Shown: positions 1 through 59,254 of the stretch, piece after piece
Layout: the number at the start of each line of letters is the position of its first letter
How positions within the stretch are numbered: the stretch's first letter is position 1
Assembly (NCBI RefSeq): GCF_029873635.1
Contig: NC_080424.1
Location: 737,501-801,500 of the forward strand
Reading direction: 5' to 3'
Origin: Malania oleifera
Taxonomy: Eukaryota; Streptophyta; Magnoliopsida; Santalales; Ximeniaceae
Length of the DNA: 64,000 nucleotides
Notes under the pieces: generated by a model
The model's input: the letters and a program-made list of their open reading frames with translations, nothing else
Told to the model about the DNA's origin: nothing
Databases searched by the model: none
Translations under genes and position numbers: made by a program

Positions 1-1158
1 GTTCGTGCCTTACCATGGTCCATCGGAGTTTTCTAATCATACATTGCAATTTAACATTCATATCCTACTCTGATTAACAATATACATGCAATACATATTC
101 TCATCACATTTCAGTATTCCCAACATCTCATAATCATAATTCATCATAGTATTTTCATTTTACTCATGCCACACCATTTAAATAATTCGCATAATCATAT
201 AATTTAAAATAACAAAAGCCAACCCATGTTCATCGTTCAAATTATTGAAAATACACATTTATTATCCTTCACAATTATCTAGAAAATTCATTATTTTCCA
301 CATTTCATTTTCAAAAATAATATCTATACAGCCCTAGGCTCAAAATCATAGTTCAAACGGTTGGCATTTCCTTTAAAAACTCACATGATAATCATATACA
401 TTTATAAACACATATCTTTTCCATTTAAACTGGTAAATTCATAAAAATGACTGGTTTAATTTATTCCCCTTACCTGGTTTTTAAAAAAATTATGTCAGTA
501 GGGACCCCAAGACGATGCCTGCGGCGCTCACCTCAACCCTGATTCAAAACCCTAGCTTATCAACTTAAACCCCAGATCAACAACTATTAAATCTTCTCAA
601 GCCCATACACCCCTTTAAACAATCATATACTAGCCAAACAACTCATTTCTACCCTTACCTCAACTTTAGGTTAAAGCCTAGAAAAACTCTATTCGAAAAT
701 CCACTCCACTAGACTTATAGAGAATTTCCCATAGATCCTCGTAGCGACTTCGATCTAATTGTTGAATTAGGCGACGAACGACGAGAAATCGTAAAGAGAA
801 TATGAAAAATGACGTTTTGGAGAGAGAAGAAGAAGAATTTTAGGTTGCTTAATGAATAAGAAACGAAAAATTCAATTTATACTCGGCCAACCTCATCGAC
901 AAGATGACGGCTTCGTTGACGAACCATAGAAGAATGTTCATTGACGAGAAGAAGACTTCATTGACGAACCCTAAACCTGAAATTCCTGTCGTTCGGGATC
1001 TCTTCGTCAATGACGATTGAACTTCGTCGACGAATTACTGAAGGACCTTCGTCGACAAAAACAAGGGATTCGTCGATGAAGCCTATTATTTCTTTTATAA
1101 AAATTCCTTTTTTCATTCCTTCATTATTTCCATAAATAAATTTGTTTGGATCTCCACA
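1..1158 (-). mobile_element. Gypsy solo LTR M, minus strand, cut by the window start
   Basis: The right border ends in CA at 1158, and LTR sequence of element A resumes at 1159, so this LTR sits inside A's 5' LTR. Read on the minus strand it has the clade layout. A TCGTCGACGA-type array lies at about 890-1090 and an AT-rich TATA-like site near 878. A donor (GAG|GTAAGG) is at 658, an acceptor (ATCAG|G) at 539-540, a 65-nt mini-exon at 538-474, and a second donor (CCAG|GTAAGG) at 473. The other end and its TSD are outside the window. Confidence 0.7.
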
Positions 1159-3988: not shown

Positions 3989-5286
3989 ACTGATATTTCT
4001 ATATTACTATTTTATCATGATTCTGATATAACTTAAATAACCATAACAAGAAATAACTGATCTGAATATGACAGAAAAATATTCTATAAATGTGATTCTG
4101 CAAGATCTGAAAATATCTATCTATCTGTATATATTTTTACATACATACATACAAATATATATATATATATATATCGTACATCACGATATTCTGAAATTCG
4201 TATAAATTCTGTATAATAATATTTTCTACTAATATACTGTAAATCATGATATGATAGCTATAAAAATACTATACTATTATGATACTAACTCATGTCACGC
4301 AACTAAATAAAGAGCTATACTAAAATCTATACTTTCCCAAAATACATAAACCTACCGATAATATTACTAATTTAACTGACATAACATATTTTTTCTTACC
4401 TGACTATTTGAGCACTAAATGCTATTTACAATCTCACGCATACGGCGTTCATAATTTCAACATCTTGAGATAACACACGTATAATTTCCCAATTAAACAA
4501 ATGAATTCACCTAGATAATTATCACATACATATTCTCCCCAAATCCACATACGCACAATTTCTAAACTATAAATCATTTATCATTTTACCTGGGTTCCTG
4601 AAACATCAACCACCGGGGTCCTCAACCCATGCCTATAGGGTCCCAAAACACCTTATTCCTGAAAATATAATACCCTGATTTTACTTCACAAAACTTCAAT
4701 ATATTCTTATATAATACAAAATCTAGACTCAAATAAACTTGGTAATACTAACAATACCCAAATAATCTACTTACCTTGGTTTTGAGATGGTTCTCAAGTT
4801 AGCCTAACCAATAAATTACTCCAATAGATTTGTAGAGAATCCTCTCAAGAGTAACGTGGCGGCTTCAGATCATTGAACCGACGAAGAATGGGGCCGAAAT
4901 CATAGAGAGAATGTAGAGAAACCGACCTAGAGAGAGGAAGTGAGAGAAAATCTGATTTTTCCTCACAGAGAATGGGTTTTTGGCCTTTTATAATGTGCTT
5001 GTCCACATGGCCTCGTTGACGAGCCATGATACCTCGTCGACAAGTCCATGAAGGAGATTCGTAGACGAGCACTTAATCCTCGTCGATGAGTTTCAAACTC
5101 TGGAAACAGACCTCTCGATAAGTTCTCGTCAACGAGACGCATGTCGACGTTGACGAGCTCAAGAAGGATGCTCATCGACGAGAGCCCTACATTCTTCGAC
5201 GAGACCCTGTAAGTCCCCTTTAAAATTTTTCTTTTCTTCCTCCTTTCTTTATTATTTAATTTCTATAAATTTTTCGAGTCTCTACA
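3014..5286 (-). mobile_element. Gypsy solo LTR C, minus strand, nested in B
   Basis: Borders are TGTAACGACC at 3014 and GTCTCTACA at 5286, flanked by aatct (3009-3013) and gatct (5287-5291), a TSD with one mismatch. There is no internal region, so this is a solo LTR of about 2.27 kb. On the minus strand: palindrome array about 4990-5215, donor AAG|GTAAGT at 4774, acceptor TTTTCAG|G at 4659-4660, 69-nt mini-exon 4658-4590, second donor CCAG|GTAAAA at 4589, conserved TCTCA motif 3396-3417. Confidence 0.82.
3943..3985. repeat. (AT)n microsatellite
   Basis: About 21 AT repeats inside solo LTR C. Confidence 0.95.
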
Positions 5287-9719: not shown

Positions 9720-10448
9720 ACTGAAACTCAGATTTTTAATCAAATTTTCAGCACAAAACCCTTCTCTCTCTCTCCTACGACCCCTTCCCCTTCTCTCTTC
9801 GATTCTGGCCCCATTTCTCGTTGGATTGAAAATCTGAGAGCACCACGACGCTCCTGGCGAAGTTCTCTACAAGTCTACTGAAGCAAATCGTGGGGAAAGT
9901 TGGTTTGAAATTCATCCCAAATCTAGGGTAAGGTATTTTATTCAGGTTATGCCTTCCTTGTAGTTATAAGAAATGTTGTAGGTAGGAAAATATTGATGTT
10001 TTGTTCTTGGGGATATTGTTTTCAGGATGCTGAGCTAGGAACCCTATGGGTATAGGGCCAGAATTTGGTAGGGGCTTTTCAAAGTTAAGGTAAGGGAAAT
10101 ATGCTATGCTAGCAATTTTTAATATGCATACAGAATATTATGAATGAGTGTTTCAAGCATGTATATCAGATTATTTTCCAGAGAATTATGAATATTATTT
10201 TTATAGCAGAATTACAGAAATTGAGCATGAGACTACGTTTATTCAAATGTGTGGCATGAGTTTATTACAGTACAATACGTATAGATTTTACAGTATTACA
10301 GATATACAGATATTCAGATATTTCAAAATATTAGAAATGAATGAGACTTACAGTATTTCTTAGAAAACATGATTTCTAAATCATAACACTCAGACAGTTT
10401 ATTCAGACAGATTATACAGTGATAGCATCAAGATGCTACAGCAGATAT

Positions 10449-17454: not shown

Positions 17455-17484
17455 TGTAGAGATCCAAACCCGTAATAAGTTGGG

Positions 17485-17682
17485 TTCGTCGACGAAGGAG
17501 TCACGTTCGTCGAAAAAGTCCTTTCAAGCCTCGTCGACGAAATTCAAAGCCTCGTCGATGAGCAAATACCAAGTGGGTCAGAGAAATATCCGGAATTGGG
17601 CTCGGCAATGAGGGAATGGCTTCGTCGATGAGTTGTGTGGTGGATTAGTCAACGAAGATGCCACTTTGTCGACGAATTTGAC
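17485..17682. repeat. U3 array of TCGTCGACGA palindromes in LTR E
   Basis: About eight copies of the 10-bp palindrome TCGTCGACGA and one- or two-base variants (mainly C/T or G/A) lie in 200 bp directly before the TATA box. Equivalent blocks are at about 890-1090, 4990-5215, 9515-9705, 24630-24825, 30405-30595, 32585-32710, 41955-42135, 54370-54575 and 57500-57695. Confidence 0.85.
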
Positions 17683-17696
17683 TCGGTCAAAGGCCC

Positions 17697-17704
17697 TATA
17701 AATA
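17697..17704 (+). promoter_or_regulatory. TATA box of LTR E
   Basis: TATAAATA directly follows the palindrome array and precedes a CT-rich leader (from about 17745). This is the likely element promoter. The copy in the second LTR is at 24843-24850. Confidence 0.75.
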
Positions 17705-17988
17705 TCCATTTTGGTTGCTTAGAAGCTAAGTTTCTTCCCAAAGCTCTCTCTCTCACTCTAAACCAGCGGAAATCCTCTCTCTCTCTAAGATTCTTCGTTG
17801 TTCGATGTCCGTTTCTAAAAATGGAGCGTGGATCAAAGGAGGAAGTTCTACAACTTTAGCAGATTGGATCGTTGTTCTGAAGATTTTTGGGTTTTCCCAA
17901 AAATTGAGGTAAGGTTCTGATTTCAATTTCGATTGAATATTTGGATAGTAGTCAAAATTATAGTAAGATTATGTTCTTTAGTTCTTAG

Positions 17989-18052
17989 GTTTTGAGGATC
18001 CTGGGTTGTCGGTTTGGATCGTTTCCATATGTAGTTTCGTTTTGAGTTTAAG
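17989..18052 (+). other. Putative 64-nt non-coding leader exon in LTR E
   Basis: The segment is preceded by GAG|GTAAGG (donor at 17909) and a pyrimidine-rich acceptor ending CTTAG at 17988. It is followed by AAG|GTAAGA at 18053. A candidate acceptor for the second intron is TTTTTAG at 19867, one base before the gag ATG (19869). The equivalent segment in ten other LTRs is 61-69 nt. Splicing is inferred only from these signals. Confidence 0.55.
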
Positions 18053-19464
18053 GTAAGAGGAATTTGATTACAACAACATTTTTGGAAAAACTATACCACT
18101 AAAGAGTTAGGTTATGCTTATATGTATGATTTAACTGTTTATTTGCTAAATTCTACCAAGTAGAAATGTCGGTTTTACGATTTTTCAATTTTTGGTAAAA
18201 ACGATGATTTTGGCGTATGATCTCCAAATTTTATGAAAATTACTTATTTGCAGTTATACTGTAGTAGGAGATGCTTGAATCCTTTGCTTTCTCATTTAAA
18301 TAGTGTTTACTGGATTTATATCATTCAGCAGATTTTTGGACTAAACTCATGTGATGTATGTTGAAATGGAAATGTATGAATTTTATATATTATGTATATG
18401 GATTATGGGAACGGAGTTCCATTTTGATTTACTGGGAATATGGAAAACAGAGGCCGGTTATACACTAAGTTGTATCTGTAAAAAGGGTAAACCGAGAGGA
18501 TATGTGTCAGATTATACCCAATGTGATTATCTGAATTTTTGAAAATACTGAAATTGCACAGGTTATTATATTTTGTTGTAAATTGTATATATGATACTGG
18601 AAACACAACTTGCTACAAAAAGAAGTTGAAAAAAACTTCAGTGATGGGGTTGAAAAATATTCTAAACTATTATAAGCACGGTTCTGATGCTGGTAGTACA
18701 GTGCAACCACACATGAGGGATCAGTGTGGGTACTTAAGATAGTCAACCTACGTGGAGTTAGTAAACTGCTCGTAAAATTAAACCAAGGGGCGTTCAGACT
18801 ATAGAAGATGCTCCGCATTGTCTGTACGAACAAGACATTGTCAGAGCTATCAGTGCACAACCCTTGCCACGGGGGTAAACAGGAAAATTGACATACCAAG
18901 CTGTAGTTGTTCTAATAATCATATGCATGATTTAAATGTTTGAATGTGCAGAAAAATCCTATATGTTACAGTATTATATACAAATGTTCCATATGTATGA
19001 GTTTTCATAAGAATATACATATATGCAGTCACACACAGTTGTAACACCTTCTTCCTTATTGAGAAGTGTCTCACCCTATTATACAACCTTTTTTTTAAGG
19101 TCCATTAGTATGTCAGTCCTAGTAGCTAAACGGATTGGGGAGATTGTTTTTGGTTTAGCTTACGTAAGCATTCAAATCATGTGTTAAACTTAGATGAAGT
19201 TCCTTTTTGGAGGGTTGTAATAACCGGATTTATTCTATGTATGGATTTATGTACTTGTGGATGTAGTAGTAAGCTCTGTTATAAGTCTAGTAGAAATCCC
19301 AATGAATGTTTATGTTTTTCTGTGATATTTACATTGAAATTTTGCATGGTTTACACCCGTATGTCCCTGTTTAGGGCGGGATGTTTATGTATCTTGAACA
19401 GGTACAGGTATTTTGTAGTTGGGTTAACGGTGCTGGTCCGTATAAAGGGCCGGGTCGTTACAGT

Positions 19465-19478
19465 TGGTATCAGAGCCC
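19465..19478 (+). promoter_or_regulatory. Primer binding site of element E
   Basis: TGGTATCAGAGCCC, two bases after the LTR end, is complementary to the 3' end of initiator tRNA-Met. The site after the second LTR (26648) reads TGGTATCAGTGCCC. Confidence 0.92.
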
Positions 19479-19868
19479 ATTAACCAGTCGAAAGTGTGTT
19501 ATAATGCATGCTGTCTAGTTAGGGATGTGTTTAGGACTTAGGAGTTGCTAGTTCTATAGTCTAGAATATACCAAAGTATAGGGCAAGGACAAGACCTTGA
19601 GTTTTTATTTGTATATCTGGAGACAAAATTCATTGATAGACTTCTGTGTTTTTCTAGATAAGTCGAAAGGTTCAGAAAATCACGGCAATCCATTAATGGT
19701 TTTGGTTTCCTAGTAGAAGGGCGGAATTCGAGTTCAAATGATAATATCAAATTAAAGGAGTGTGTCAATATTGAGGATATGAAGTTAAGGAATTGAGTTA
19801 TAATATGATAGCACTAGTCAATGCACAGGTTATTACCTTTCTAATGGATTCTCGTAATTGTTTTTAGG

Positions 19869-20830
19869 ATGAAATCCAGGGATATTGCTGCCAACGTGGG
19901 AGGCAGTAGTAGTGAGGGTGCCGGCCCTGAGGCTGGTAATGATTCTACTAGTGTATTGCGTGACTTCACACAGTAGCTTATGGCTGAGGTAGTGCGGACG
20001 AATAGGGGGTAGGATCGTCCTACGACTGAGTTGGGTTGCTCCATTGAGCAGTTCACCAGATTGAAGCCCTCGATTTTTTAGGGCAGTGTAGATCTAGTTC
20101 GTGTTGAGAATTGGATCCAGGAGATTGAGAAGATCCTAGATGCTTTGAATTGCACGGAGAGGCAGAAAGTTACCTTTACCACGTTCAAGTTGGCAGGGGA
20201 GGCTAAGAGATTGTGGGTGTCTGTAAAGAAGATGGAAGAGCACCGACCGATACCAGTAGCATTGATGTTGGCCCGGTTCAAAGAGCTCTTCTTTGAACAT
20301 TATTTTTCGGCCACGGTTAGAAACGCGAAGATGGAGGAATTCATGAACCTGATGCAAGAGTCGTTGACAATGCAGTAGTATGTTGCCAAATTCCAAGAGC
20401 TGTCCCAATTTGCTCCATTCGTGATACCGGATGAAGCAAAGAAGGCTTGAAAATTTCAAAGAGGTCTAAGGAAGGAGATCCATAAGCAGACGATGATCTT
20501 GTAGTTGCAAGATTTTGCTACGTTGGTTGACAAAGCCACAATAGCATAAGAGTGTTTGCTAAAGGACACAGAAGTTCAGGTCACAAAGAAGAGGCCAGCG
20601 CCTCCTAATTCTTCGCCAGGGGCAAGACAGGGTAATTGGAAGAAGAACAGTGGTGGTACATCCCAGAACACCTCACGTGTTCAACGTTGCTCTTTGTGTG
20701 GTCAGAACACCGCACGTGTTCAACGTTGCTCTTTGTGTGGTAAGAAACACCATGGGCAGTGTTGGTTGTCTATGAGGGCTTGTATGTGGTGTGGTAGGCA
20801 AGGGCATCAGATGAGAGACTGTCATGTGTA
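19869..20830 (+). pseudogene. Broken gag of gypsy element E
   Basis: The ATG at 19869 follows a TTTTTAG acceptor-like site. The product would be the capsid/nucleocapsid precursor. Capsid motifs include VRVENWIQEIEKILDAL and CTERQKVTFTTFKLAGEAKRLW (20100-20210). The nucleocapsid CCHC knuckle (CMWCGRQGHQMRDCH) is at about 20788-20830. At least seven in-frame stops interrupt it, several in positions where the family has Gln, for example TAG at 20376-20378 in TMQ*YVAKF. A 39-bp in-frame duplication lies just before the knuckle. Non-functional. Confidence 0.87.
20664..20741 (+). repeat. In-frame 39-bp tandem duplication in gag of E
   Basis: Two copies (20664-20702 and 20703-20741) of a 13-codon unit encoding QNTSRVQRCSLCG and QNTARVQRCSLCG. 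They differ at one base and double a CX2C half-motif upstream of the CCHC knuckle. Confidence 0.93.
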
Positions 20831-24916: not shown

Positions 24917-24961
<45 letters not shown>

Positions 24962-26645
24962 AGACTCTTTGCTGTTCGACGTCCATTTCTAAAAATGGAG
25001 GTTCCTGCGTGGATCAGAGGAGGAAGTTCTACAACTTTAGCGGATCAAATCGTTGTTTTGAAGATTTTTTAGTTTTCTCAAAAATCGAGGTAAGGATCTG
25101 ATTTCAATTTCGATTAAATATTTGGATAGTAGTCGAAATTATACTAAGATTATGTTCTATGGTTTTTAGGTTTTGAGGATCCCGGGTTGTCGGTTTGGAT
25201 CGTTTCCGTACGTAGTTTCGTTTTGAGTTTAAGGTAAGGGGAATTTGATTACAACAGCATTTTTGGAAAAAACTATACCGCTAAAGAGTTAGGTTATGCT
25301 TATATGTATGATTTAACTGTTTATTTGCTAAATTCTACCAAGTAGAAATGCCGGTTTTATGATTTTTTGGTTTTTGGTAAAAAATGAGAATTTTGGCGTA
25401 TGATCTCCAAATTTTACGAAAATTACTTATTTGCAATTATACTGTAGTAGGAGATGTCTGAATCCTTTGCTTTGTCATTTAAATAGTGTTTACGGGATTT
25501 ATATCATTCAACAAAGTTTTGGACTAAACTCGTGTGATGTATATTGAAATGGAAATGTATGAATTTTCTATATTATGTATATGGATTATGGGAATGGAGT
25601 TCCATTTTGATTTACTGGGATTGTGGAAAACAGAGGCCGATTATACACCGAGCTGTATCTATAAAAAGGGTAAACCGAGAGGATATATGTTGGATTATAT
25701 CCGATGTGATTATCTGAATTTATGAAAATACTGGAATTGCACATGCTATTATATTTTGTTGTAAATTGTATGTATGATACTGGAAACATAGCTTGCTACC
25801 AAAATCAGTTGAAAAAAAACTTCAGTGATGGGGTTGAAAAATACTCTAAACTATTATAAGCACTATTCCGATGCTAGTAGCACAGTGCAACCACACTTGA
25901 GGGATCAGTGTCGGTACTTAAGATAGTCGACCTGCGTGGAGTTAGTAAACTGCTCGTAAAAATAAATCAGGGGCGGTCGGACTATAGAAGATGCTCCGCA
26001 TTGTCTGTACGAACAAGACATTGTCAGAGGTATCAATGTATAACCCGTGCCATGAGGGTAAACAGGAAAATTGACATACCAAGCTGTAGTTGTTCTAATA
26101 ATCATATGCATGATTTAAATGTTTGAATGTGCAGAAAAATCCTATATGTTACAGTATTATATACAAATGTTCCATATGTATGAGTTTTTATAAGAATATG
26201 CATATATGCAGTCACACACAGTTGTAACACCTTCTTCCTTATTAAGAAATGTCTCACCCTATTATACAACCTTTTTTTTAAGGTCCATCAGTATGTCGGT
26301 CCTAGTAGCTAAACAGATTGGGGAGATTGTTTTTGGTTTAGCTTACGTAAGCATTCAAATCATGTGTTAAACTTAGATGAAGTTCCTTTTTGGAGGGTTG
26401 TAATAACCGGATTTATTCTATGTCTGGATTTATGTACTTGTGGATGTATTAGTAAGCTCTGTTATAAGTCTAGTAGAAATGCCAATGAATGTTTATGTTT
26501 TTCCGCAATATTTACATTGAAATTTTGCATGGTTTACACCCGTATGTCCTTGTTTAGGGCGGGATGTCTATGTATCTTGAACAGGTACAGGTATTTTGTA
26601 GTTGGGTTAACGATGCTGGTCCGTATAAAGGGTCAGGTCGTTACA
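24601..26645 (+). mobile_element. Second LTR of element E, shared by two internal regions
   Basis: Starts TGTAGAGACC after the polypurine tract and ends GTCGTTACA at 26645. It is both the 3' LTR of E and the 5' LTR of a second internal region, because a primer binding site and leader follow it. TATA box 24843-24850; donor 25090; acceptor 25168-25169; mini-exon 25170-25233 (64 nt); second donor 25234; conserved motif 26239-26259. A (CT)n tract at 24920-24960 is about 40 bp here and about 12 bp in the first LTR. Confidence 0.92.
24920..24960. repeat. (CT)n microsatellite in the leader of LTR E
   Basis: About 20 CT units, in the transcribed leader downstream of the TATA box. Confidence 0.95.
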
Positions 26646-27792
26646 GTTGGTATCAGTGCCCATTAACCTGTCGGAAGTGTGTTATAATGCATGCTGTCTG
26701 GTTAGGGATGTCTTTAAGACTTAGGAGTTGCTAGTTCTATAGTCTAGAATATACCAGAGTATAGGGCAAGGATAAGACCTTGAGTTTTGCTTTGTATATC
26801 TGGAGACGGAATTCATTGATAGACTTCTGTGTTTTTCTAGATTAGTCGAAAGGTTCAGAAAATCACGGCAATCCATTGACGGTTTTGGTTTCCTAGTAGA
26901 AGGGCGGAATTCGAGTTCGAATGATAATATCAAATTAAATGAGTGTGTCAATATTGGGGATATGAAGTTAAGGAATTGAGTTATAATATGATAGCACTAG
27001 TCAATGCACAGGTTATTACTTTTCTAATGGATTCTAGTAATTGTTTTTAGGATGGAATCCAGGGATATTACTGCCAACGTGGGAGGCAGTAGTAGTGAGG
27101 GTGCCGGCTAAAGAGAAGAAGGACAAGTCGATGAGAATGTGCATCGATTATAGAGAACTGAATAAGGTGACGATAAAGAACGGGTATCCGCTACCCAGGA
27201 TCGATGATTTGTTTGATCAATTTCAGGGCACATAGATCTTTTCCAAGATTGACCTACGATCTAGGTATCACTAGCCGAAGGTGAAAGCGGAGGACGTCTC
27301 GAAAACTGCATTTCGAACCCATGGCCATTTTGAATTTATGGTTATGCCTTTTGATTTGACTAATGCACCTGTAGCATTTATGGATTTGATGAATTGGGTC
27401 TTTTATGAACATCTAGATCAGTTCGTTGTAGTATTTATCGATTATATCCTGATGTATTCTAGGAGTGCTGCAGAGCATGAAGTTCATTTGAGACTAGTTT
27501 TGCAAATGCTTAGGGATAAGAGGTTGTATGCTAAGATAAAGAAGTGTGAGTTCTGGCTGGAACAGATTGCATTTTTGGGGCACGTAGTGTCTAAAGAAGG
27601 TGTATTGGTGGACCCATGTAAGATTAAGGCAGTAGTGGATTGGGCGAGACCGAAGAATGTTCAAGAGGTCAGAAGTTTTCTGGGTCTTGCAGGTTACTAC
27701 CGTCAGTTTGTATCTAGTTTAACAGGACCTTTGACGAGACTCACGCAGAATAATGTGAGGTATGATTAGACGGATGAGTGCGAATGGAGTTT
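26646..27792 (+). mobile_element. Second, internally deleted internal region of E (tandem copy)
   Basis: Primer binding site, leader and gag start (ATG 27052, after TTTTTAG) are collinear with 19463-19920. At about 27113 the sequence jumps to the reverse transcriptase ([24 protein letters not shown]), skipping about 1.8 kb relative to the first copy. RT continues ([32 protein letters not shown] with the second catalytic Asp changed to Tyr) into early RNase H. It stops at about 27792, where it is joined to integrase sequence of element A. The rest of this copy and its LTR are gone. Confidence 0.88.
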
Positions 27793-28720: not shown

Positions 28721-30619
28721 TGTAACGACCTGCTATACTTTATAAATATTTTAAATTTTTTCAATAATAAATACCATGAAATTTCATGTCTCTAATACCT
28801 TCTGATATATATATATATAACTATTAACCTATGCAACAGGAAGCTGTATCCATATAACCATAAACACATATATACACAATACTAGAGTGCGAAGATGTTC
28901 CCAAAATATGCATATACAACTATTCCTCAGAAAGACACCCTCATCTGTGCTAGAGTTATACAAAATTAATCTCCAAAAAAAAATACTCACTCTACTGACG
29001 GGGCAGCACTGAAGCCCCTCTACCTACGAGCGTGATCCGCTCACCTACCTAGATCAGCTAAAAAATGTTAATGTAATGGGATGAGCCAACGCCCAGTAAG
29101 ACGAAATATGTTATTGCTAGTGTGTGGCAAATGAGTTACATTTCTATAAAAATTTGAGTCTATAAAATCATGAATAACTGAATTTGAAAATATAGGTACA
29201 AATAATATATATACCACCTTGTTCACATTACTTAACATAACTGTCTTTATAAGTTTTCTATTCATAATACTTCTAGTATTCATAAGTATATCCTTTATTT
29301 CTGTAAACTGTATATACATATAAATACTGAAAAACTTTCCTGTAGATAACTGTATGTCATGATTTAACCTCTCATGACAAGGTTGTGCGGCTTCTAGGCG
29401 GGATTTACCACTGGTTGGCCTACCAGGATAAACCACTATACTTCTTCAGTTAGATCGGCCCTCCTCAACCCATATTTGATAGGGAGTCTGTCCACAACAT
29501 AAGCACGATCGACTTATCTATCACGTATTATCTGAATAGGTGATTGCACTTTATACTGTATATAGCTACAGTACTGTGCTCTGTAATCTGTAATGGTCCA
29601 TCAGTGTCTTATACTATATAATACATCTCTATATACAACTATTTATTTTACCATGATTCTGTAATAACTGTATTAACCATAACGTTGTGATAAACTGTAT
29701 TCGTACCAACTGTATTTTTGAAATGAACTGTAAAACTGTATATCATGGTACTAAAAAAATGTATAATCATGGTATTTTGAAAATACTATAAACCATATTC
29801 CCTATCTGTATATTCTGTAAAACATAATCCTGAAAATACTGTAAAACATATTTATGTATTGTATCTATATTCTCAAGCCACACAGTAATTTAAAACATAT
29901 TATACATAATTGATAAACCATATAAATTTCTACTTTGAATAATAATCTGGTAAAAACGTATAATTTATGCTGAAAACATACTAGAATTGACTAGCATAAC
30001 ATATTTCCCTTACCTGATTTCTGTTAAAAATCCTCTGCTGAGACGGATCCTACACCTGCAGGGTTCTCCACTCAACACCCTGAAAATCATATATCCTAGA
30101 ACAAAATATCACTATTTCCTTGCGTACTACATTTCCTACAACTGCTGAAAAGCCAAACTTTGACAAAAAGACCTTACCCTAAATCTGGGATGAAATCCAA
30201 CTTCGTCCTACTGACAATCCGCTCCGGCAGACTTGGAGAGAACTTTCCCAGGAGCATCGTGGTGGCCTCAGATCATCGATCCGGCGGCTAACGGGGCCAA
30301 AATCAAAGAGAGAGGAGGGAGAGATCATAAAGAGAGGAGAGAGAGTTTTTTTGAATTTTTCTGCGTAAAAATCCAAGTTTAACACCATTTATACTACAGG
30401 CTTCGTCGACGAGCCACTTAATCTCGTCGATGAGTCTAAGAAGAAATTCGTCGACGAACTCTCCCCTTTGTCGACGAAATTCAGAATCTCCCAAAACATC
30501 CTCTCGGTATCTTCTCGTTGACGAAACATGTCCTCGTCGACGAGACCCTCTTGTACCCTCGTCGACGAATCCCCTATGTTCGTCAACGAGGCTATGAGAA
30601 AATTCCTTGGGTTATTACA
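28721..30619 (-). mobile_element. Gypsy solo LTR K, minus strand, in A 3' LTR
   Basis: Borders TGTAACGACC (28721) and GGTTATTACA (30619), with a perfect 5-bp TSD atttt (28716-28720 and 30620-30624). It is 1899 bp with no internal region. On the minus strand: palindrome array 30595-30405, donor AGG|GTAAGG at 30177, acceptor TTTTCAG|G at 30080-30081, 66-nt mini-exon 30079-30014, second donor CAG|GTAAGG at 30013, conserved motif 29078-29099. Confidence 0.92.
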
Positions 30620-32827: not shown

Positions 32828-34342
32828 CGGCCTCTTCTCCATCTCTCTTCTATTTCGGCCCCATCAGTCGCCGGATCGACGATCTGAGGCCACCACGACG
32901 CTCCTAGCGATGTTTTCTCCAAATTTACCAAGCGGATCGTCAGTGGGATCAAGTTGAATTTCTTCCCAGAATCAGGATAAGGCCTTTTATTCAGTTTTTG
33001 GTCTTCTGGCAGTTGTAGGAAATGACGGAGACAAAGAAATAATGATATTTTGTTCTGGTGAATGTGGTTTTCAGTGTGTTGAGTAGGAAGCCCAGCGGGT
33101 GTTAGACTAGTATACCATAGGGGCTTTCTAGTAGTCAGGTAAGGGAACCATGCTATGTTAGGAAACTCTTTTATTATCTCAACATGAATTATATTTTTAA
33201 CAAATTATTGTTCAGATTATATATATATAGTTTCCAGAACTTGAAAATGTTAATATGTATTTGTGTGGCTTGAGTTGATAACCGAACAGTACTATTTTTA
33301 TAGAATATGTGAATACCATGTCTATAGTTATTAACAGAAATACCATGTTATTTGCATATTATAGAATGATGAATTTTTTAGTATACAGTATACTCAGAAA
33401 TATGTACTTTCAGTAATCTCAGAATAACATGTTTATTAGTACCATAACGTCCCAATATACAGATATTCAGACAGCAGTTCAGTTATACAGAAATTAGATT
33501 TTCAATCAATTTTATTTAGAATTTCAGATAAATTCTATGGGGTTATGATTATTTTAGAAACCACAGTAAAAATAGTATATTACAGATATCAGTTACCTAT
33601 ATAGTATCATACCCTGTGGATCAGACAGCAAAGCATGGTACCGTAACTACAGATATTCAGTTTAGAGTGCAACCACATTACTCAGATAGTAAGTGGTATG
33701 AGGTCGATCGTGCCCACGTCGGGACAGGCTCTCCATCAGATATGGATTGAGGGGGCTGATCAGACTGTCGGAGTTCAGTTGACTTACCCTAGTCGGCCAG
33801 CCAGGATAGGTCCCGCCTTCGAGCCACACAACCCTGTCATGAAAGGTTAAGTCATGACATACAGTCATCCACGGAAAGTTTTTCAAATATTATAAGTATA
33901 AGTAGATTTCCAGAATTAGTAGTAGTATTATAAAAAGTAAATTTATATAGTCTTAATATATGTTCCTTATACCAACATTTACAGTTCTAGTTATTCATGA
34001 TATTATTTTTAAAACAAATTATAAATACAGAAATATAACTCAGTAGCCACACATTAGTAATAGTATGTTTTGTCTTACTGAACGTTGGCTCATCCTAGTG
34101 TTGAATTGTTTTTCAGGTGATCCAGTTAGGCGAGCGGAGAGGCTCGCAGTTTTTGTGAACCCTTGGTATTAGTGAGGGTAGTTTCAAAAAAACAGTGAGG
34201 ATTGTATATTGTCGGATGATTTGATACTCTAGTATTATATTATGTGTGGTTTTATTTTATATGATTAGTTTTCCGCTGTTTAGGATAATGATTGAATTTA
34301 AAATTAGCAAAAAAGATTTTATTTTTTTAGCAGGTCGTTTCA
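32520..34342 (+). mobile_element. Gypsy solo LTR L
   Basis: Begins TATAATGACC (terminal TG apparently mutated) at 32520 and ends GGTCGTTTCA at 34342. Flanks tatgt (32515-32519) and tatgc (34343-34347) are a TSD with one mismatch. Inside: palindrome array 32585-32710, TATA box 32714-32721, (CT)n 32769-32824. The first donor is lost (CAG|GATAAGG at 32976). Acceptor GGTTTTCAG is at 33073-33074, the 64-nt mini-exon is 33075-33138, the second donor CAG|GTAAGG is at 33139, and the conserved motif is 34075-34095. Confidence 0.85.
32769..32824. repeat. (CT)n microsatellite in LTR L
   Basis: About 28 CT units in the leader just after the TATA box, the same position as the (CT)n tract of LTR E. Confidence 0.95.
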
Positions 34343-46685: not shown

Positions 46686-49197
46686 TGTGACGCCTCAAAC
46701 GCACCAATTGGGGCCCGAGTGCCACGTGTTCCAATTACCTATATCTGATACCATAATTAACTTGCACGCAACGGAATATAAATAAATAACCTCAAATAAA
46801 TACCAGAGTTCTATATAACAACCCAAAAACGAACACTACAACATCCAGATATCCGTATCCACAACCAGTATTTAAAACATAACCCAATACAAATATATTT
46901 GTATATATATACCAGTATCTCACAATACCCCAAAAGAAACTACCAAAAACAACCCCAGCCTAGGCCTTCAAACCCGATCTCTAGAAGAACCTGAAAAGTT
47001 GTTAATCCACTAGGGTGAGACACTTCTCAGTAAGGGTGGAATAAATTATAACAGTGTGTGGCAAATGAGTTTTAATATTTACATATCAAAATAAAATGTT
47101 TCTCACATAATATCAATAACAACTGAGAAAATGTACCATTAATAACATCCCTAACATCTAATATCATACACACATTCAATATGCACAAGTACATAATTTT
47201 TATGCAGGCGAAAGTCCCTGATGATAGGGAAGATTACTTGCTCATAAAAGTAGTTTCCTTCTACTCTAATACCTAAAAGATACCTACCAGAGCACTCACC
47301 TTACTCAGTAAGCCCTCAGGTGGAGAATTACCTCGCCATTAGTATATACATCTTTATTATTTTAAAGGTGAAGGTTTCCGAGGATCGGGATGTCTACCTG
47401 CCCATACAAGTAGCATCCCTTTATACTGATATCTAGAAACTACCAATCAAAGCACTTGCCTTTCTCAACAAGCCCCTGGTGGTATGTTTACCTCGCTGCA
47501 TGCACACACATGCATTCACAATATGCTATATCATTATTATCATTTTTTTAATTAAATTCACATGCACAACAAATCCACACAAGAATCATGCAACTTATAC
47601 TTCGTCTTCCAATGTCCTAAGTACTTGGCCCACACAGAGCAACTGCGTACATATTAGTACATGGCCCACACAGGCACCACTACCTACACAGGGTACATAA
47701 CATGGCCCACACAAGCACCACCATCCACATAGGATATATAACATGGCCCACACAGGCGTCATTATCCACATAGTATATAACGTGGCCCACACAAGCACCA
47801 CTCCAGCTTCCGCGACACGTGGCCCACACAGGCACCACTATTCACCAGTATCCAATCCCCATGACCTGCCCATAGTACATCAGTAAAACAAGCTCCTCGA
47901 CCTACTAATGTCCTATCCCATATAAACAACAATATGACGAGCTCCTTAACCTATCAACGTCATATCATGATTTGTATCTAGGCAATATAACAACCTCCTC
48001 ATGCCAACGTTATATTAAGATGCATACGAATAATCACACCAGTTAATTCACACAGACGCATCAATGCATTTCCACACAAGAATCCAACAGATCAATTCAT
48101 TTCCCACATAGTATCCTAACAGATCAATACATTTCCACACAGGAGTCAAACATAGCAATTCATTCATCATGTCATTATCATTCCAAACATCCCCACATAC
48201 AAACCCAAATACCACAGTAATTCATATTCAATTTATTAGTAAAATTGTTCCCATGTCACACGAATTTAATATCATATGCAATTATCCCAAATATAAACCT
48301 TAAACACAATCATCATTTTCTAGTACTCAAGTTGTTCTAAAAAAAATCATATAGATAAATAATAAATTTCATATGTTCGTAAATAATCAGTTCACCTTAA
48401 TAAAATACTGATATAATTTTATTCCCCCTTGCCTGATTTCCTGAACCACCCCTGCAGGGTTCCCAAAATTATACCTGCGGCATTCACCCAAACCCTGATT
48501 CAATCAAATCATCCCCAATAAAATATTATTTTAACCTTTCCTAATTTACAATAATTAAATAACAATTAATTTCTAAATAACCCATTTATCCTAGCTTTGG
48601 GGCTATTTCCACAACGACCCCACAAGAAATCTGTTCTGCTATACTTGTAAAGAATCATCCCTAGATTCTCGTGATTGTGTCTAATCGTCAATTTGACTTA
48701 AAATTTAAGAAAAATTGAGGCAAGAATGAGAATTTGCCTTGCCCCAAGAGATATGCCTACGTCGCTCCTACGACAAATCTACTCCGGTAGAAATTTTGGT
48801 GGCGGGGAATGGAACCCAGTGGTATTTCGGATTTTCAATTGAGCGAGAATCCGCTGCAAAATCGTAGAGAGAGGAGGAGTGGAGAGCATGAGCTGAGAAA
48901 GTTTTTTCTTTCTTTCTTTCTTTCCCTTTCCTTCCTCTTCTGTGCGTGAGAAAAGGTTTTTTTTTTCTTCTTTCCTCTTCCTACTTTGTTCCAGCGGGAA
49001 ACTTAAGCACGAAGTTTTCCTTCTTCTTTTTTTCTTTCCTTTATCCTTACTTTATACTTTTTGTATAATAACTTTATATATACTTTATATATATATATAC
49101 CCACAACCCTCAAATTTCCTAATTTAATTAATTTTCTTACTAATAATTAATTAATTAATAATTTTTTTTTTAATTTTTTTTTTCTTTAGTCGTTATA
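46686..49197 (-). mobile_element. Gypsy solo LTR G, minus strand, in gag of element F
   Basis: Begins TGTGACGCCTC at 46686 and ends AGTCGTTATA at 49197 (terminal CA mutated). Flanks gtttt (46681-46685) and gtttc (49198-49202) are a TSD with one mismatch. It is 2512 bp. On the minus strand: acceptor AATCAG|G at 48495-48496, 62-nt mini-exon 48494-48433, and both donor positions read GCAAGG instead of GTAAGG (about 48742 and 48432). Conserved TCTCACCC motif at 47013-47033. Confidence 0.83.
47626..47846 (-). repeat. Minisatellite with a roughly 41-bp unit in LTR G
   Basis: About six units starting with TGGCCCACACAGGCACCAC (plus strand), variably diverged, spaced 35-45 bp. Confidence 0.85.
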
Positions 49198-49396: not shown

Positions 49397-49775
49397 CTTG
49401 AAAAGCAATTAAGGATATCAATTAGAAGCTTAACCAACTAATACCGCAATACTATAAACTGACTTCCCATAATAACATTCCTAGTACCGTCGTACTCTAA
49501 TGACTCACATTCTCATTCTAACTCGAGTTTCGCCTTTCCACTTAGAAACAAAGTCGTCAATAGATTGCCGTGATTTTCTAAACCCTTCGAATGATCCAGA
49601 AAAGCACCAAAGTTTGTCAATGGATTTCTGTCCCCCAAGTATACTAAGCTAAACTCGAAAATCAAACTCACATCCTAAACTCTGGTATAGTCTAATTTAT
49701 AGAACCTAACAACCTAAGCTCTGAGCATATCCATAACTAGGCAGTGCAATTCACATCACACTTCTGGCTGGCTAT

Positions 49776-49789
49776 GGGCTCTGATACCA
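49776..49789 (-). promoter_or_regulatory. Primer binding site of element F
   Basis: The minus strand reads TGGTATCAGAGCCC, three bases from the LTR border at 49793. Confidence 0.92.
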
Positions 49790-50711: not shown

Positions 50712-53286
50712 TGTAACGCCCCGACCCCCTAAGTGGGCCTGGAGTGCTACTAATCCATTCATTTACCTAATAATTCACATTCTAATATCATGTATGCAGC
50801 GGAAAACATTACTATAATCTTCCAACAAATATAATACCAGAGTTCTCTAAAATCTATCTACACACCATAATAAACCATGCTTCTACCTGTATTCAACATA
50901 TATATATATATATATCCCCAAAAACATCCAGTATTCACAATCCTTCATTTCTTATCAACCTTAAAACATAAGACATAAAATATAAAATATTAACATTCCC
51001 AAAAACATCATTAAAATGTTTATACCCTTTTTCTTATATCTCCCAAAAATGCTATAAAACCTCGAGCTCTCTAAGCTTGATCTCGAGGAGGTCCTAAAAA
51101 AGATACATTTATATTTAGGTGAGACACATTTCAGTAAGGGAAGAAACAATATATTAAAACAATGTGTGGCCAATATGAGGATTGTATATAACATATTATT
51201 CATCATTTGCAAATCATTAAGTTAATTCCTGAAATCATTTTCTGATCCTATTCAAACACATGCAAGGTATTTTACACACGAGATTACCTGAGGATAGGGG
51301 TGATTACCCATCCATACAAGTAGCACCCCTCTGCTCTGATACTTAGGCAACCCTAGGATCACTGCTGAAGCATACCAGGGCACTCACCTTATTCAGTAAG
51401 CCCTCAAGCATTAGATTGATCTCGTACTCACATAATTCAAACAAAGGCTTACCAGTGAAGGCCCCAATGGTAGGAAAATCTACCCGTCCATACAAGTAGG
51501 TTCCCTTTGCTCTAGTACATTATGCAACTACTACCACATCTAAAGTTACTAGCGTACTCACCTTTCTCAACAAACCCTCAAGCGAAGAGTACACCCCGCC
51601 CAATCGAAACATGTTCTACCAGCATAAATACTGCTAATACCATAATACATTATTTTGTTTGCTTTTATTCTGCATCTCTCAACTGTTCATGTTTTCATCT
51701 TTTACTTTTCATTTTATTTCACTTTACGTGACTTTTTCCCATTTTACATTGTTCACATTTCACATTTTATTTCCATTTCATTCATTTCCATTTTCATTTC
51801 ATTTCATTTCATACCTAGCATCTTTCAACTGTTTTACCCAGCATCCTTCAGCTATTTTACCCAATATTTTTCAACTGTTATACATTTACCTAGCATCTTT
51901 CAACTGTTTTACCCAACATTTTTCAGCTGTTTTACTTAACATCTTTCAACTGTTTTACCCAACATTTTTCAACTGTTTTACCTAACATCTTTCAGTTGTT
52001 TTACCCAGCATCTTTCAGCTATTTTACCCAGCATTTTTCAACTGTCATACATTTACCTAACATCTTTCAGTTGTTTTACCCAACATCTTTTAGCTGCTTA
52101 CATGGGTGCATTAACACACACAAGCAACATAGTTCATATCATATTTCATTCTCAATGTATTACTTACTTAACTTGCATCTCATACATTTAACATATATTT
52201 GCACAGAACTTACATTTACTCATGTCACACAATTTAGCAATAAAATTCATACACTACCTGTAAAATAAGCCAACCAACATTTAACGTCTATATACTGAAA
52301 ATACCTTTCATTTCATACTCAATTATCCTGAAAATATTTTTCACTTTGATCAGTTCATTTTTGCATATACATATCTAATAAACAATCCTAAACTTGGAAA
52401 AACATAATTTAAATGGTTGACGTTTTAAACCTATACCGAAACATATACACGTATATATAACACAATTCATTTTCCATTAAATTCATAAAAATTCTGGTTT
52501 AATATATTTTTTTCCCTTACCTGGTTTCTTGAACTATGCCAACAGAGACCCCGAAAAATATCTGCGATACTCACTTGGACCCTGAATCAAAAATCCTAAT
52601 TTCATTAAATCAACCCTAAATAAAATAATATTTTAATATTTCCTAGGGTCATAAATTCCAAAAAAATAATTATACCTTCAAATATAGCCAATTTACCTAA
52701 TTTCCAAAATCTCACTCTCGCTTTGGAGTGGGACTTAGAAAACCCCAATTGGAAATTTACTCTAGGCAAAATGACGACGATCGCGACTAGGACACCGTGG
52801 TGGTGCTCGATCGTCGATTTAATGGTAGATTTAAAGTGAAATTGAGAAATTAGGTTAAAATTGCCTTACCCCAGGAATAGTATCTAAGCCACTTTCACGA
52901 CAAATTCGCTCCAGTAGAAATGTCAGCAACGGAATTAGGAATCTAACGACAAACTCCGTTTCCCGATCTACCGCAAATCCGTCGAGAAATTAAGAGAGAG
53001 ACAGAGACAGAGACAGAGGGAGGCTGGGCGCGCAAAAAATTTTCACAGGGGGGCGTGAGTCTTTGTAGAAACCAAATTCATCTCCTGAAGCTTCTAAGCT
53101 TCAGGAGAGTTACCCTTTCTTATATATATTATATATTATAATAATATATTATATTATATTAATATGTTATGTTATATACTTTAATTAATGATTATCATTA
53201 TTTAATTAATTATTTAATTTAGTTAATTATTTAATTCAGTTTAATTTTATTTTATTTTTTTATTTTATTTTTTTTGGATCACTACA
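50712..53286 (-). mobile_element. Gypsy solo LTR H, minus strand, in F 5' LTR
   Basis: Borders TGTAACGCCC (50712) and TCACTACA (53286), with a perfect 5-bp TSD gtacc (50707-50711 and 53287-53291). It is 2575 bp. On the minus strand: donor GG|GTAAGG at 52869, acceptor GATTCAG|G at 52582-52583, 61-nt mini-exon 52581-52521, second donor CCAG|GTAAGG at 52520, conserved motif 51119-51138. It has no obvious TCGTCGACGA array. Confidence 0.93.
51814..52100 (-). repeat. Minisatellite with a roughly 24-bp unit in LTR H
   Basis: About twelve units of the form AACATCTTTCAACTGTTTTA plus CCC. Every few units an extra ATACATTT spacer occurs, giving a weak higher-order pattern. Confidence 0.9.
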
Positions 53287-54192
53287 GTACCGAGCCTACA
53301 TAATATAAGCTTTTTAGGCTTCATATACTATTGAGACAAGCTATGGTCCCAATATCATATATACAATTTACATTAAAACATAATAACTTCGGCAATTCCA
53401 ATATTTTCACAATCTCATTCATGCATACTTTCATTCATACTGTGGTAAAAATCGCCTCGTAACCTCTCGGTTTTACCCTTTTCTCATATTTGGCACAGTA
53501 TCTAACCGGCACTTGTTTCTACAATTTCTAATAACCACTTGGAACCTTAGTTCTCATAGTTCATATACATGCATCTCAAATCAATATAGAATCAATTCAT
53601 ATCATACGTCATACTTATTTGATCATGTATATACATTTCACATAAACTGGTTTGTAAAATATCATTTCTGCTGCTATTAAGAGTTTCAAGCATCTCCTAC
53701 TTTAGTTTTGGTGCAAAGAAAGTAGTTTAAGAAATTTGGGGATCATATGCCAAAAACCCTATTTTTTGCCAAAACCGTAAAATCGTGAAAACCGTAAGAA
53801 TCAGCATTTATACCCGGTAAAACTTTGGAAATAAGCAGTCAATAAGTACATATAAATATAAGCTACATATCCTGTGGTTTTTTTTTTTTTAAGTACTGAT
53901 GTAAAAAAAACCCCTTACCTTTATCCCAAAAACTAAAGCACGAGCTTATTGATCCAAAACCACGACACGGGATCTTCAAAACCTAAAAACTAAAGAACAA
54001 TACTTCAATATTATTCATTAATCTATTACATATCTACCGAAATGAAAACGAAATCAAATCCTTACCTCGATTTTAGGAAAAAACCCATAAATCATAAAAA
54101 TGATGATCTGATCCGCTATAACTAAAGAGATTCTCCTTCTAATCACGTAGAAACTTCCAATCCTAGAAACAAACGACGAACAGCAAGGAATC

Positions 54193-54196
<4 letters not shown>

Positions 54197-54271
<75 letters not shown>
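54197..54271. repeat. (GA)n microsatellite in the leader of LTR F
   Basis: About 37 GA units with two GGGA interruptions, at the same leader position as the (CT)n tracts of LTRs E and L. Confidence 0.93.
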
Positions 54272-56739: not shown

Positions 56740-57430
56740 CCTGCAAATAGAATAAAACGGTTTCAAAACTCTTTCATCATAACACACTAACACACCCAGC
56801 ATACTAAAATCCACAAGATACTCTGCTACATACATTTCTCTTTACATTCTTAATCCTCATTTAAAATTAAATCTTACCACTTAGAAACAAGAACCGACGA
56901 TAGTATCTATGGTTTTCCTGAAATCGTCACCCTAGGAAAAACACAGAAACAACCACAGAACTCCTGCCTCCAGACCGTAAGATAAAACCCTAAATTCCAA
57001 ACTCATCCTCTAACAATTACTAACCCATATCTTAATCTACTCATCTCCAATTCTCCTCACAATCCATTCCTATACTCTAGATGCTAGTGTTGCAGTAAAG
57101 GGAGGAGAAAAGGGAGAAGGAGACTGAGGGAGAATAGGGAGAGAAGGGAGAGTGGGGGAGTGAGATAAGGGTGCGGCTGAGAGAGAAAAGGGAGCAAAGG
57201 GGAGGAGGGGGCTAAGGGGAAGAGAGCCAAGAGAGGACCGACAGAGAAGAAAAGGAGAAAGAGAGAATGAGAGAGTGAGAGAGGGAAGGGAAGGAGAAGT
57301 TGTGCGGGGGCTCACAGAGAGGAGATAGGGAAGGAGAGAGTAAAGGAGAGGAAGAAGAAATGGCAAGAAGAAGGAGAGGGGTGCGCTCCTTTGCTGAGGA
57401 AGAAGAAAAAAAAATAGGGGAGGGGGGAAA
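56740..57430 (-). other. Leader of element I, pyrimidine-rich upstream part
   Basis: Between gag and LTR J there is no LTR end or primer site. On the minus strand a CT-rich block of about 330 bp (57430-57100) comes first. A possible acceptor ATTTCAG is at 56918-56919, then a 40-nt segment, a donor GTG|GTAAGA at 56877, and an acceptor TTTGCAG at 56741-56742 beside the gag ATG. A small open frame runs through the CT block and is probably meaningless. Confidence 0.5.
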
Positions 57431-59254
57431 TGTAAGAACCCGAACCGTGATATATGTATTTAACTAATTAAGAGAAGGGTAAAATGGTAATTGAGCAGGC
57501 TTCGTCGACGAAGCCAGAGTTCGTTGACGAAGGCCCCAGGTTTCTTGGCGACAAATTTCAAGTGCTCATCGACGAGGAGAAGCCGAGAGGTGTTAAGAAA
57601 CCGGGAATCTAAGGCTCGTCGATGAGGTTACCGCTTCATCGACGAGCAATCTATATGGGCTCGTTGACAAGGACACCATTCGTCAATGAGGATGGCCGAG
57701 TCAAAGGGCTATAAATAGATATTTTCATTACTTCTCAGCTAAGAAAACTCAATTTCTCTCTCTATCTCTCTAGAAACTCATCGTACGCACTCTCTCTCTA
57801 GATTTCTTCGACGTACGTCGCTGGAATCAATAATCTGACATTATCAAGAAGATCAGGGGAGGATTCTCTACAAGTTCTACGGATCGGATTTTTGTTTTGG
57901 GCATTCTTGGGTTTTGGTCTAAAATCAAGGTAAGGCTCGATTTTCAGTTCTGATTTGGTAGTCTTGTAGGTAACGGGGTTGTGAGTAACTTATGTACTGT
58001 GGTTTGTAGGATTTGGAACTCGGTTCACTGTTTAGGGGCCTTAGAGTTCGAGATTGACAATTTGGGGAAAGGTAAGGGGAATTACATTTATATCGGTTAT
58101 TTTTTTATATCAGACTCAGTGGAACTGTGGTCCACGATCCTGTGTGTGTTTTGGTTACTCATTTGGGAAATCTAACAGGTAAAAATTATGGTTTTTTCAT
58201 GTTACAGTTTTGGGAAAAGGGGGCGACGGATTGTATCCCTGGTTTTGTTGGAAAACTATAGATATATTGTGATATGTATTGTGTTATAGGGATAGTCGTG
58301 CCTTAACTTGTTTAAACTGTATGTGTTTGAAAAACCATGATTTTAGATTACCAAATGGGTGTGGTTTTGTTTGGTTATATGAGCATGCATGAGTTGTGTT
58401 TTGGTGAAATAGGAACTAGGTTCTGAATTGTTCCAGGTTTTGAAATCCGGCTTTTGCCAAAGAGTGCGCAATACCACTAGATCGGCCGGCTTTCGAACCG
58501 AAGGGTGTGCGAACACCAGATCTACACCGGTTCAACGCTGATGCTATGCCAGGTTACCGAGGGCACTGACTTTTGCCAAAGGGTGTGAAATATTACCAGA
58601 CTGCCGGCGTTTGCCGAAGGGTGTGAGATATCACCAGATTGCCAGTTTTTATCGAAGGGTGTGAAATACTACCAGACAGTCCGGCTTCGAGCCGAAGTGT
58701 GTGACGATACCAAATTGTATTGCTTGTTTTGTGAAAACATTGGAACTGATTTAAACTGTTTTGACTATAAAAACTATGCATGTTAGTATGTCATGATAAC
58801 ACTCATATGCCACACACCGATATAACCTGATTCTGCCTTACTGAGAGGTGTCTCACCCCTGCTGTACGTACATATTTTTTAAGTCCTTCGGGTAATCGAA
58901 ACTAGCATCCTTGTGTGGGAGCGTAGTGGTCAGTGTACTGCCGACAGTACTTGGGTAAGTACTAAGACTGTTTCGGGTGGTATTTTGTGGTTTTGGCTGG
59001 CACCGGGATTGTGTTTTGTATTATGGACTTCGATTTCCTTGTGTATAGACTCTGGTACGGTATAGGATTTGTATAGAAAGATCATTTTTTGCTTAGTATA
59101 TTCTGTTCTGTATGAATGTGTATAGGTTGCTTGCAAACCCCACGGGGTCGGACCCTCATTCATTGTCCCGTGTATGGATGTTTTTGTATGATACAGGGAC
59201 GGGTTAGGTTACTGATTCACCCCTGGGTCCCATTACCGGGTTCGGGGCGTGACA
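57431..59254 (+). mobile_element. Gypsy solo LTR J
   Basis: Starts TGTAAGAACCCGAACC at 57431 and ends TTCGGGGCGTGACA at 59254, flanked by ggaaa (57426-57430) and ggcaa (59255-59259), a TSD with one mismatch. It is 1824 bp. Inside: palindrome array 57500-57695, TATA box 57710-57717, donor AAG|GTAAGG at 57930, acceptor GTTTGTAG|G at 58008-58009, 62-nt mini-exon 58010-58071, second donor AAG|GTAAGG at 58072, conserved motif 58838-58858. Confidence 0.87.
58448..58716 (+). repeat. Minisatellite with a roughly 45-bp unit in LTR J
   Basis: About six units of the form CCGGCTTTTGCCGAAGGGTG, then TGAAATATTACCAGA, with one degenerate stretch in the middle. Confidence 0.85.

Follow-up and report, generated by a model that had tools for sequence, protein, structure and literature searches.

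How a single RNA species of a long terminal repeat (LTR) retrotransposon can act as both message and genome is an old question. It is raised anew by a 64,000-nt stretch of Malania oleifera DNA (GCF_029873635.1, NC_080424.1:737,501-801,500, forward strand; hereafter the window), in which Ty3/gypsy elements, among them one that we call E, carry candidate splice sites between their TATA box and gag. Judged from these sites, the 5′ leader of several related plant Ty3/gypsy families very probably starts inside the LTR and contains two spliceosomal introns, which would give a doubly spliced gag mRNA alongside an unspliced genome. To follow the sites beyond the window, family copies were taken from the same genome (1.49 Gb).

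Two candidate introns in the LTR leader

In E, a first donor, a short mini-exon flanked by an acceptor and a second donor, and an acceptor at the gag ATG follow one another in the order expected of a leader with two introns. The primer binding site of the element, which presumably matches initiator methionine tRNA (tRNA-iMet), lies within the second of these putative introns. The layout is as follows, a slash marking a splice border here and below.

17697..17908, plus strand: TATA box of the E 5′ LTR (from 17697) and exon 1, ending TTGAG/; start site placed from the TATA box
17909..17988, plus strand: E intron 1, 80 nt, GTAAGG...TTCTTAG
17989..18052, plus strand: E mini-exon, 64 nt
18053..19867, plus strand: putative E intron 2, GTAAGA to TTTTTAG, holding most of U5, the primer binding site and the leader
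19465..19476, plus strand: E primer binding site TGGTATCAGAGC, within intron 2
19868..19871, plus strand: start of the E last exon, a G followed by the ATG of gag

Corresponding sites occur in the other LTR copies extracted from the window, labelled A, B, C, D, E2 (the second E copy), F48433, G, H, I and K.

25090..25169, plus strand: E2 intron 1, 80 nt
25170..25233, plus strand: E2 mini-exon, 64 nt
25234..27050, plus strand: putative E2 intron 2, acceptor TTTTTAG/GATGG
9928..10025, plus strand: B intron 1, 98 nt
10026..10089, plus strand: B mini-exon, 64 nt, donor GTAAGG
33075..33138, plus strand: G mini-exon, 64 nt; GTAAGG at donor 2, GATAAGG (mutated) at donor 1
53983..54065, minus strand: K (apparently the F 5′ LTR) intron 1, 83 nt
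53919..53982, minus strand: K mini-exon, 64 nt
57930..58009, plus strand: I intron 1, 80 nt; counterpart of the intron lost in the C2 element described below
58010..58071, plus strand: I mini-exon, 62 nt
539..658, minus strand: A intron 1, 120 nt
474..538, minus strand: A mini-exon, 65 nt
4659..4774, minus strand: C intron 1, 116 nt
4590..4658, minus strand: C mini-exon, 69 nt, donor GTAAAA
30080..30177, minus strand: D intron 1, 98 nt
30014..30079, minus strand: D mini-exon, 66 nt
52582..52696, minus strand: H intron 1, 115 nt, donor GTAAAT
52521..52581, minus strand: H mini-exon, 61 nt
48433..48494, minus strand: F48433 mini-exon, 62 nt; GCAAGG at donor 2, GATAAAT (site lost) at donor 1

The mini-exon coordinates and lengths (61–69 nt) given in a preliminary description of this DNA were reproduced in all eleven copies, each with an acceptor AG directly before the mini-exon. 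The second donor had been described as usually GTAAGG, which is its form in eight of the eleven (E reads GTAAGA and C GTAAAA); GT is present in ten, the copy at 48433 having GCAAGG instead. The first donor needed correction. It had been credited to ten copies, and GT is found in nine, two copies rather than one being mutated (GATAAGG at 33075, GATAAAT at 48433). Seven copies have GTAAGG at this site, C has GTAAGT and H has GTAAAT (52696, minus strand). A coding role for the mini-exon was considered and rejected, as its lengths occur in all three frames.

Base composition changes at these borders. Over the eleven copies, with the bounds of intron 1 assumed in the two that have a mutated donor, GC content is 41% in exon 1, 29% in intron 1, 47% in the mini-exon and 28% at the start of intron 2; the corresponding values for T are 30, 42, 31 and 38%.

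To gauge chance expectation, both strands were scanned for an acceptor and a donor 58–72 nt apart, using approximate plant splice matrices that were not fitted to these data. The window holds 14 such pairs, against 3.5 ± 1.9 (maximum 7) in 20 windows simulated with a first-order model to match its dinucleotide make-up. Nine of the 14 are mini-exons of the preliminary description, the copies at 33075 and 48433 not being among them; the pair at 47332-47397 (minus strand) was set aside, as it looks like a chance pair within the 3′ part of an LTR. When a donor 70–130 nt upstream was also required, 10–11 pairs remained (one lies at the threshold after rounding), compared with 0.55 in the simulations (maximum 2). 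The window copies are homologous and their counts are not independent, so conservation between families carries more weight than these numbers.

Conservation of the sites and the start of gag

Conservation was measured over 551 nt of leader between 17 E loci plus the window E and 29 I loci plus the window I, a sample that includes some LTR pairs of the same element. Mean identity between the two families was 0.52. The six best 6-nt windows all fall on donor 2 (18050-18053) and donor 1 (17907-17908), with values of 0.96–0.97; the middle of the mini-exon scored 0.45 and the middle of intron 1 0.49. Similarly, when the eleven window copies were aligned without gaps and anchored on donor 2, identity was 0.67–1.0 from −2 to +6 and about 0.2–0.5 at most outside positions, and the run AG/GTAAGGG stands out from its flanks; such anchoring is circular for the central dinucleotides but not for the flanking letters. 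Among fetched 5′ ends, donor 1, acceptor 1 and donor 2 are intact in 8/8, 7/8 and 8/8 E copies and in 5/7, 7/7 and 6/7 I copies, respectively. With conserved donors and acceptors and a plant-like contrast in composition, the sites have the appearance of U2-type introns.

Exon 1 holds a second conserved motif at 17830-17862 and equivalent positions, which reads GGAAGTTCTACAACTTTAGC in E and is GTTCTCTACAAGTCTA-like in other families. It is a candidate splicing enhancer, packaging or promoter element.

Splice sites are not the only conserved places in the leader: motifs without a splice function are also retained at 17838-17848 and 17890 between E and I, and at −223 before gag. They would suit an explanation in which GTAAGGG and TTTTCAG are kept for another cause, such as protein binding, packaging or translation context, with no splicing at all and with the 80-nt loss on C2 described below arising by chance. 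We regard this as highly improbable, given that the donor-like and acceptor-like motifs stand in the correct order and at composition borders.

The acceptor at the start of gag points the same way as the donors. Those claimed in the preliminary description are all present: AG/G ATG at 19866-19867 in E, likewise at 27050 in E2, AG/ATG at 49397 in F and AG/G ATG at 56741.

49397..49398, minus strand: F gag acceptor TTTTCAAG/ATGG, with the ATG at 49396
56741..56742, minus strand: gag acceptor TATTTGCAG/GATGG of a minus-strand element

Gag starts from at least five families were read, 18 in all, and 17 of them have an AG 0–1 nt before the ATG; in the exception, L049, AA replaces AG, and this start was left out of the alignment of the other 17. 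Two places are conserved in that alignment: one comprises the acceptor and the ATG, the other is a motif some 220 nt upstream. The acceptor windows reach 0.88–0.89 against an upstream mean of 0.44. All six readable E copies (eight fetched) show a T-rich tract, TAG or CAG, G and ATG, and five of the six readable I copies (seven fetched) show CAG or TAG, A and ATG about 320 nt past the primer site; the gag acceptor was unreadable in L045, L056 and L057. A like arrangement is seen in the A family (L088) and in another element (L091). Four A-family pieces were fetched for the gag end, and two of them, which showed no primer site, were left unread for the acceptor.

Between the primer site and gag (about 19645-19700, with equivalents in L044–L058, L088 and L091) lies a conserved TTCYGTGTTTTTC ... 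AAAATCAYGGCAA, a possible hairpin in intron 2. The stretch folds weakly better than column-shuffled controls (−2.39 versus −0.32 ± 0.71, a value reached by 3 of 100 shuffles), and two shorter cuts of it gave no structure. A packaging role for it is a guess.

Splicing would also change what a ribosome meets on the way to gag. In E and I copies, ATG occurs 7 times per kb in exon 1, 10–19 times in intron 1, 0.5–3.5 times in the mini-exon and 26–29 times at the start of intron 2; mini-exons contain 1 ATG against 17.6 expected in I, and 4 against 8.5 in E. The leader, about 2.1 kb long on E coordinates with the start placed by the TATA box, would shrink to about 245 nt. It would not become free of ATG, as one in exon 1 is kept in 12 of 18 E copies.

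Taken as a mechanism, these features suggest the following course. Transcription would begin after the TATA box, and removal of an 80–122-nt intron 1 would join exon 1 (about 180 nt in E) to the 61–69-nt mini-exon. The mini-exon would in turn be joined to the last exon, which opens 0–1 nt before the gag ATG. The doubly spliced RNA would be the mRNA for gag, or perhaps gag-pol, and the unspliced RNA, with the primer site and the post-primer leader, would be the genome. The preliminary description had likewise proposed a spliced gag mRNA. Its case for leader splicing is strengthened by the donors shared across families, the gag acceptor, the composition and the loss on C2; as for intron 2, it is the conserved sites that suggest its removal, and with it Gag made from spliced RNA and a genome of unspliced RNA.

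The same anatomy could serve another purpose. Enhancing introns are typically small and lie just downstream of the promoter, and intron 1 is small and promoter-proximal. The introns may thus act in intron-mediated enhancement of expression, or in RNA export, with a separate gag mRNA as a side effect, and this would fit all the site data. Both the acceptor 0–1 nt before the gag ATG and the removal of an ATG-rich leader point instead to translation, and we consider a mainly expression-related purpose unlikely.

An LTR pair lacking intron 1 and the balance of evidence

If an RNA lacking only intron 1 were reverse transcribed, both LTRs of the new copy should lack exactly that intron, since synthesis of strong-stop cDNA uses the 5′ end as its template. 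We therefore searched the whole genome for joined exon 1/mini-exon sequence, with reversed patterns as controls, allowing at most two mismatches for the E probe and three for the I probe. The most telling evidence came from this search, outside the window. The I probe gave a single match, at C2:113263007-113263032 on the minus strand, and its control none. In this LTR the TATA box and exon 1 are followed directly by the mini-exon, and donor 2 and the downstream LTR are kept. The same junction recurs in another LTR of like orientation at a distance of 6.8 kb. Aligned with unspliced copies, both lack 80 nt whose ends fit GT...AG. Identity between the pair is 80.5% over 1,760 columns when gaps count, and 89.5% over 1,602 positions when they are excluded. 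A probe made from the C2 copy itself found two matches in the genome, the two LTRs of this one element (control 0). The element region, G000:C2:113260500-113272300 (L092, L093), is the only intron-1-less place found with the probes used.

An unspliced probe of the same length and mismatch limit as the joined I probe had 2,970 matches (control 0), a ratio that is rough, since the joined probe is less sensitive: its mini-exon half is conserved to a lesser degree than the donor half on which the unspliced probe draws. Deletions of at least 10 nt in the intron-1 region are rare in the sample; they were seen twice in 36 loci, a few of which are the same copy, and measured 10 and 11 nt. The C2 loss thus probably records one retrotransposition of an RNA from which intron 1 had been spliced, with intron 2 and the primer site kept; reverse transcription of such an RNA would have passed the loss to both LTRs through strong-stop cDNA. 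The rarity of intron-less LTRs implies that genomic RNA nearly always retains intron 1, so that splicing and packaging would need to be well separated.

Several observations weigh against a doubly spliced leader, or against parts of it. The C2 loss is a single event. Donor and acceptor share AG/G, so a DNA deletion through this 3-nt repeat in the parent would give the same product and is a possible alternative. The repeats flanking the deletion would equally suit conservation without splicing, on which account the fit of the deletion ends to GT and AG in both C2 LTRs would be a coincidence. The E probe for joined exon 1/mini-exon, searched over the whole genome, had four matches against five for its control, none convincing when judged by their letters. 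A joined E mini-exon/gag probe had six genome matches (control 0), all of them unspliced acceptors by their letters, although absence of such a copy is expected because the RNA would lack the primer site. Within families the sites are retained above the mean, not exceptionally so: equal dinucleotides do as well in 26–50% of cases among 29 I copies and in 12–53% among 11 E copies. In the A family, of which 16 of 41 loci were fetched, acceptor 1, donor 1 and donor 2 are intact in 12, 13 and 14 of the 16, a frequency of loss expected of old copies that lends no support. We take within-family differences to be mostly decay after insertion, and the retention test alone gives no support for selection. 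No acceptor adjoins the gag ATG of L077, a gypsy element on one of the contaminant contigs considered below. Finally, the acceptor 1 window scored 0.78 between E and I, which is weaker than the donors and is reached by 11% of windows. The preliminary description had made its proposal depend on sites being better conserved than neighbouring LTR sequence; between families this holds for the donors and less so for acceptor 1, and within families no clear difference is seen.

As the least conserved LTR site (0.78 against 0.93 and 0.96), acceptor 1 also bears on a variant in which intron 1 is truly spliced, but the main mRNA skips the mini-exon by joining donor 1 to the gag acceptor, or retains intron 2, so that the mini-exon is used only occasionally. 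The lack of a joined E mini-exon/gag copy in the genome agrees with either form. Donor 2, however, has the best conserved windows of the compared stretch and would be useless if the mini-exon were skipped, and mini-exons are poor in ATG, and we hold this variant to be quite unlikely.

Returning to the doubly spliced leader, its full form would be that a very abundant plant gypsy lineage makes Gag only from doubly spliced mRNA, that primer site and packaging signal lie in intron 2, that the spliceosome sorts message from genome, and that rare intron-1-less RNAs are packaged and leave intron-less LTR pairs. We consider this strong version evenly balanced between true and false. If it is true, the choice between message and genome is made neither by a frameshift nor by a second promoter but by the spliceosome, the reverse of the retroviral rule in which gag comes from unspliced RNA, and the answer to the old question would be encoded in the leader of an abundant plant repeat group. 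Annotation that assumes intron-less elements would then miss the real 5′ end of gag, and genes next to an LTR promoter of this group would be supplied with a splice donor ready for use. LTR pairs from which an intron has been lost exactly could, moreover, be read as a DNA-level record of splicing where RNA is absent.

Classification, neighbourhood and known systems

E was identified as a plant Ty3/gypsy LTR retrotransposon from its LTR repeat (17455/24601) and the primer binding site at 19465. Pfam domains RVP_2, RVT_1 and Integrase_H2C2 (protease, reverse transcriptase and integrase) were found, and among the matches listed (at least 120) relatives of the reverse transcriptase are 60–70% identical, with most of the named ones from plants. 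Placement of the elements in Tekay/Del is tentative: a Pfam chromodomain search of 24137-24343 gave no match, even at an E-value of 10, and by eye this segment resembles a chromodomain, which at the integrase C terminus is a mark of that group.

E itself appears to be a tandem of LTR, internal region, LTR and internal region, with 17455-19925 matching 24601-27108 at 91.9%, and the second E LTR again precedes primer-site-like sequence and gag. Directly 5′ of the E LTR lies a pol-like piece, 16736-17444, which is 68.6% like 22989-23697. At 49397-54571 on the minus strand, the F 5′ LTR (mini-exon at 53919) appears to be split by an insertion bearing the H LTR (52521). Elsewhere in the window, 36822-38967 (minus strand) holds pieces of a POT/PTR2-type transporter gene, with a Pfam match for 36825-37763 and the remainder assigned by position and by eye, and 63434-63916 (minus strand) looks by eye like a Copia-like RNase H stretch, with no Pfam match at an E-value of 0.001.

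Searches of viral contigs with the integrase piece and the reverse transcriptase alignment gave no match, and a search of genome contigs returned nine loci in bacterial or metagenome-assembled genome records, which we take to be foreign, partly plant, contamination. Two of these gypsy contigs have a strong donor after an LTR leader (CAG/GTAAGT at 5346 of L075 and GAG/GTGAGT at 2681 of L083), and in L081, which overlaps L083 at 88%, an acceptor (1454) precedes the gag ATG by 4 nt. No convincing mini-exon was seen in them; in L083 the scan did list one candidate of 65 nt, whose upstream donor is weak. As a parallel for leader introns these contigs are only suggestive.

The published systems are compared here through excerpts of open-licence PubMed Central texts. 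Among the matches listed in that literature, titles and abstract openings contain no report of leader introns in Tekay/Del; the excerpts of PMC9097378 and PMC2832683 hold nothing on such introns, and neither "intron" nor "splic" occurs in PMC3059260. A 2025 review describes plant LTR elements as generally intron-free, with Ogre and EVADE as notable exceptions (PMC12786077).

Ogre is also a gypsy element, and some of its transcripts lose an intron, as is proposed here. According to the excerpt, that intron separates gag-prot from RT-RH-INT, whereas the introns described here precede gag (PMC6317226). EVADE, with its shGAG RNA, and sunflower Tyran/Varan share the principle that splicing yields RNAs with different coding sets (PMC12786077, PMC7730604, PMC8892269). 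In EVADE and in the sunflower elements, splicing acts within the coding part, unlike here; that of EVADE drops the protease domain and introduces a stop codon, which leaves a short gag RNA (PMC12786077, PMC7730604). The short sunflower isoforms combine removal of two introns with alternative termination and encode a truncated GAG; Tekay members are absent from the sunflower expressed set, and the excerpts describe no leader mini-exon for EVADE or Tyran/Varan (PMC12786077, PMC7730604, PMC8892269). Maize CRM1 is another plant gypsy element whose RNA is handled by the spliceosome, although its RNAs are back-spliced and, as far as the excerpt goes, apparently provide no gag mRNA leader (PMC7010299).

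The closest anatomy is a predicted one, that of the soybean Ty3/gypsy element Diaspora: donors in the LTR, 1.4–2.2 kb ahead of gag-pol, and acceptors on either side of the start codon (PMC1142308). Diaspora belongs to an Athila/Calypso-related lineage and uses a tRNA-Asp primer, and its authors left the relevance of the predicted sites open; the excerpt of their account contains no conservation test, intron-loss copy or mini-exon (PMC1142308). It states that, as of 2005, an intron upstream of gag was unreported for any retrovirus or LTR element (PMC1142308).

In function, a counterpart is BARE1, a Ty1/copia element of barley and likewise a plant LTR retrotransposon, which as excerpted has what is proposed for the present elements, a separate spliced Gag RNA next to an unspliced packaged RNA, and also a U-rich, GC-poor intron (PMC3735527). 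The BARE1-type intron lies at the gag/pol border and creates a gag-only open reading frame, whereas the sites described here are upstream of the gag ATG. Here both introns would lie ahead of gag, with their starts in the LTR, the primer site would be lost when the second is spliced out, and one likely intron-1-loss copy has been found, in each respect a difference from BARE1 as excerpted (PMC3735527). Spliced gag RNA is thus already known in plant LTR retrotransposons, and what is new here is best described as a type of it with two probable introns, which together reach from inside the LTR to the gag ATG.

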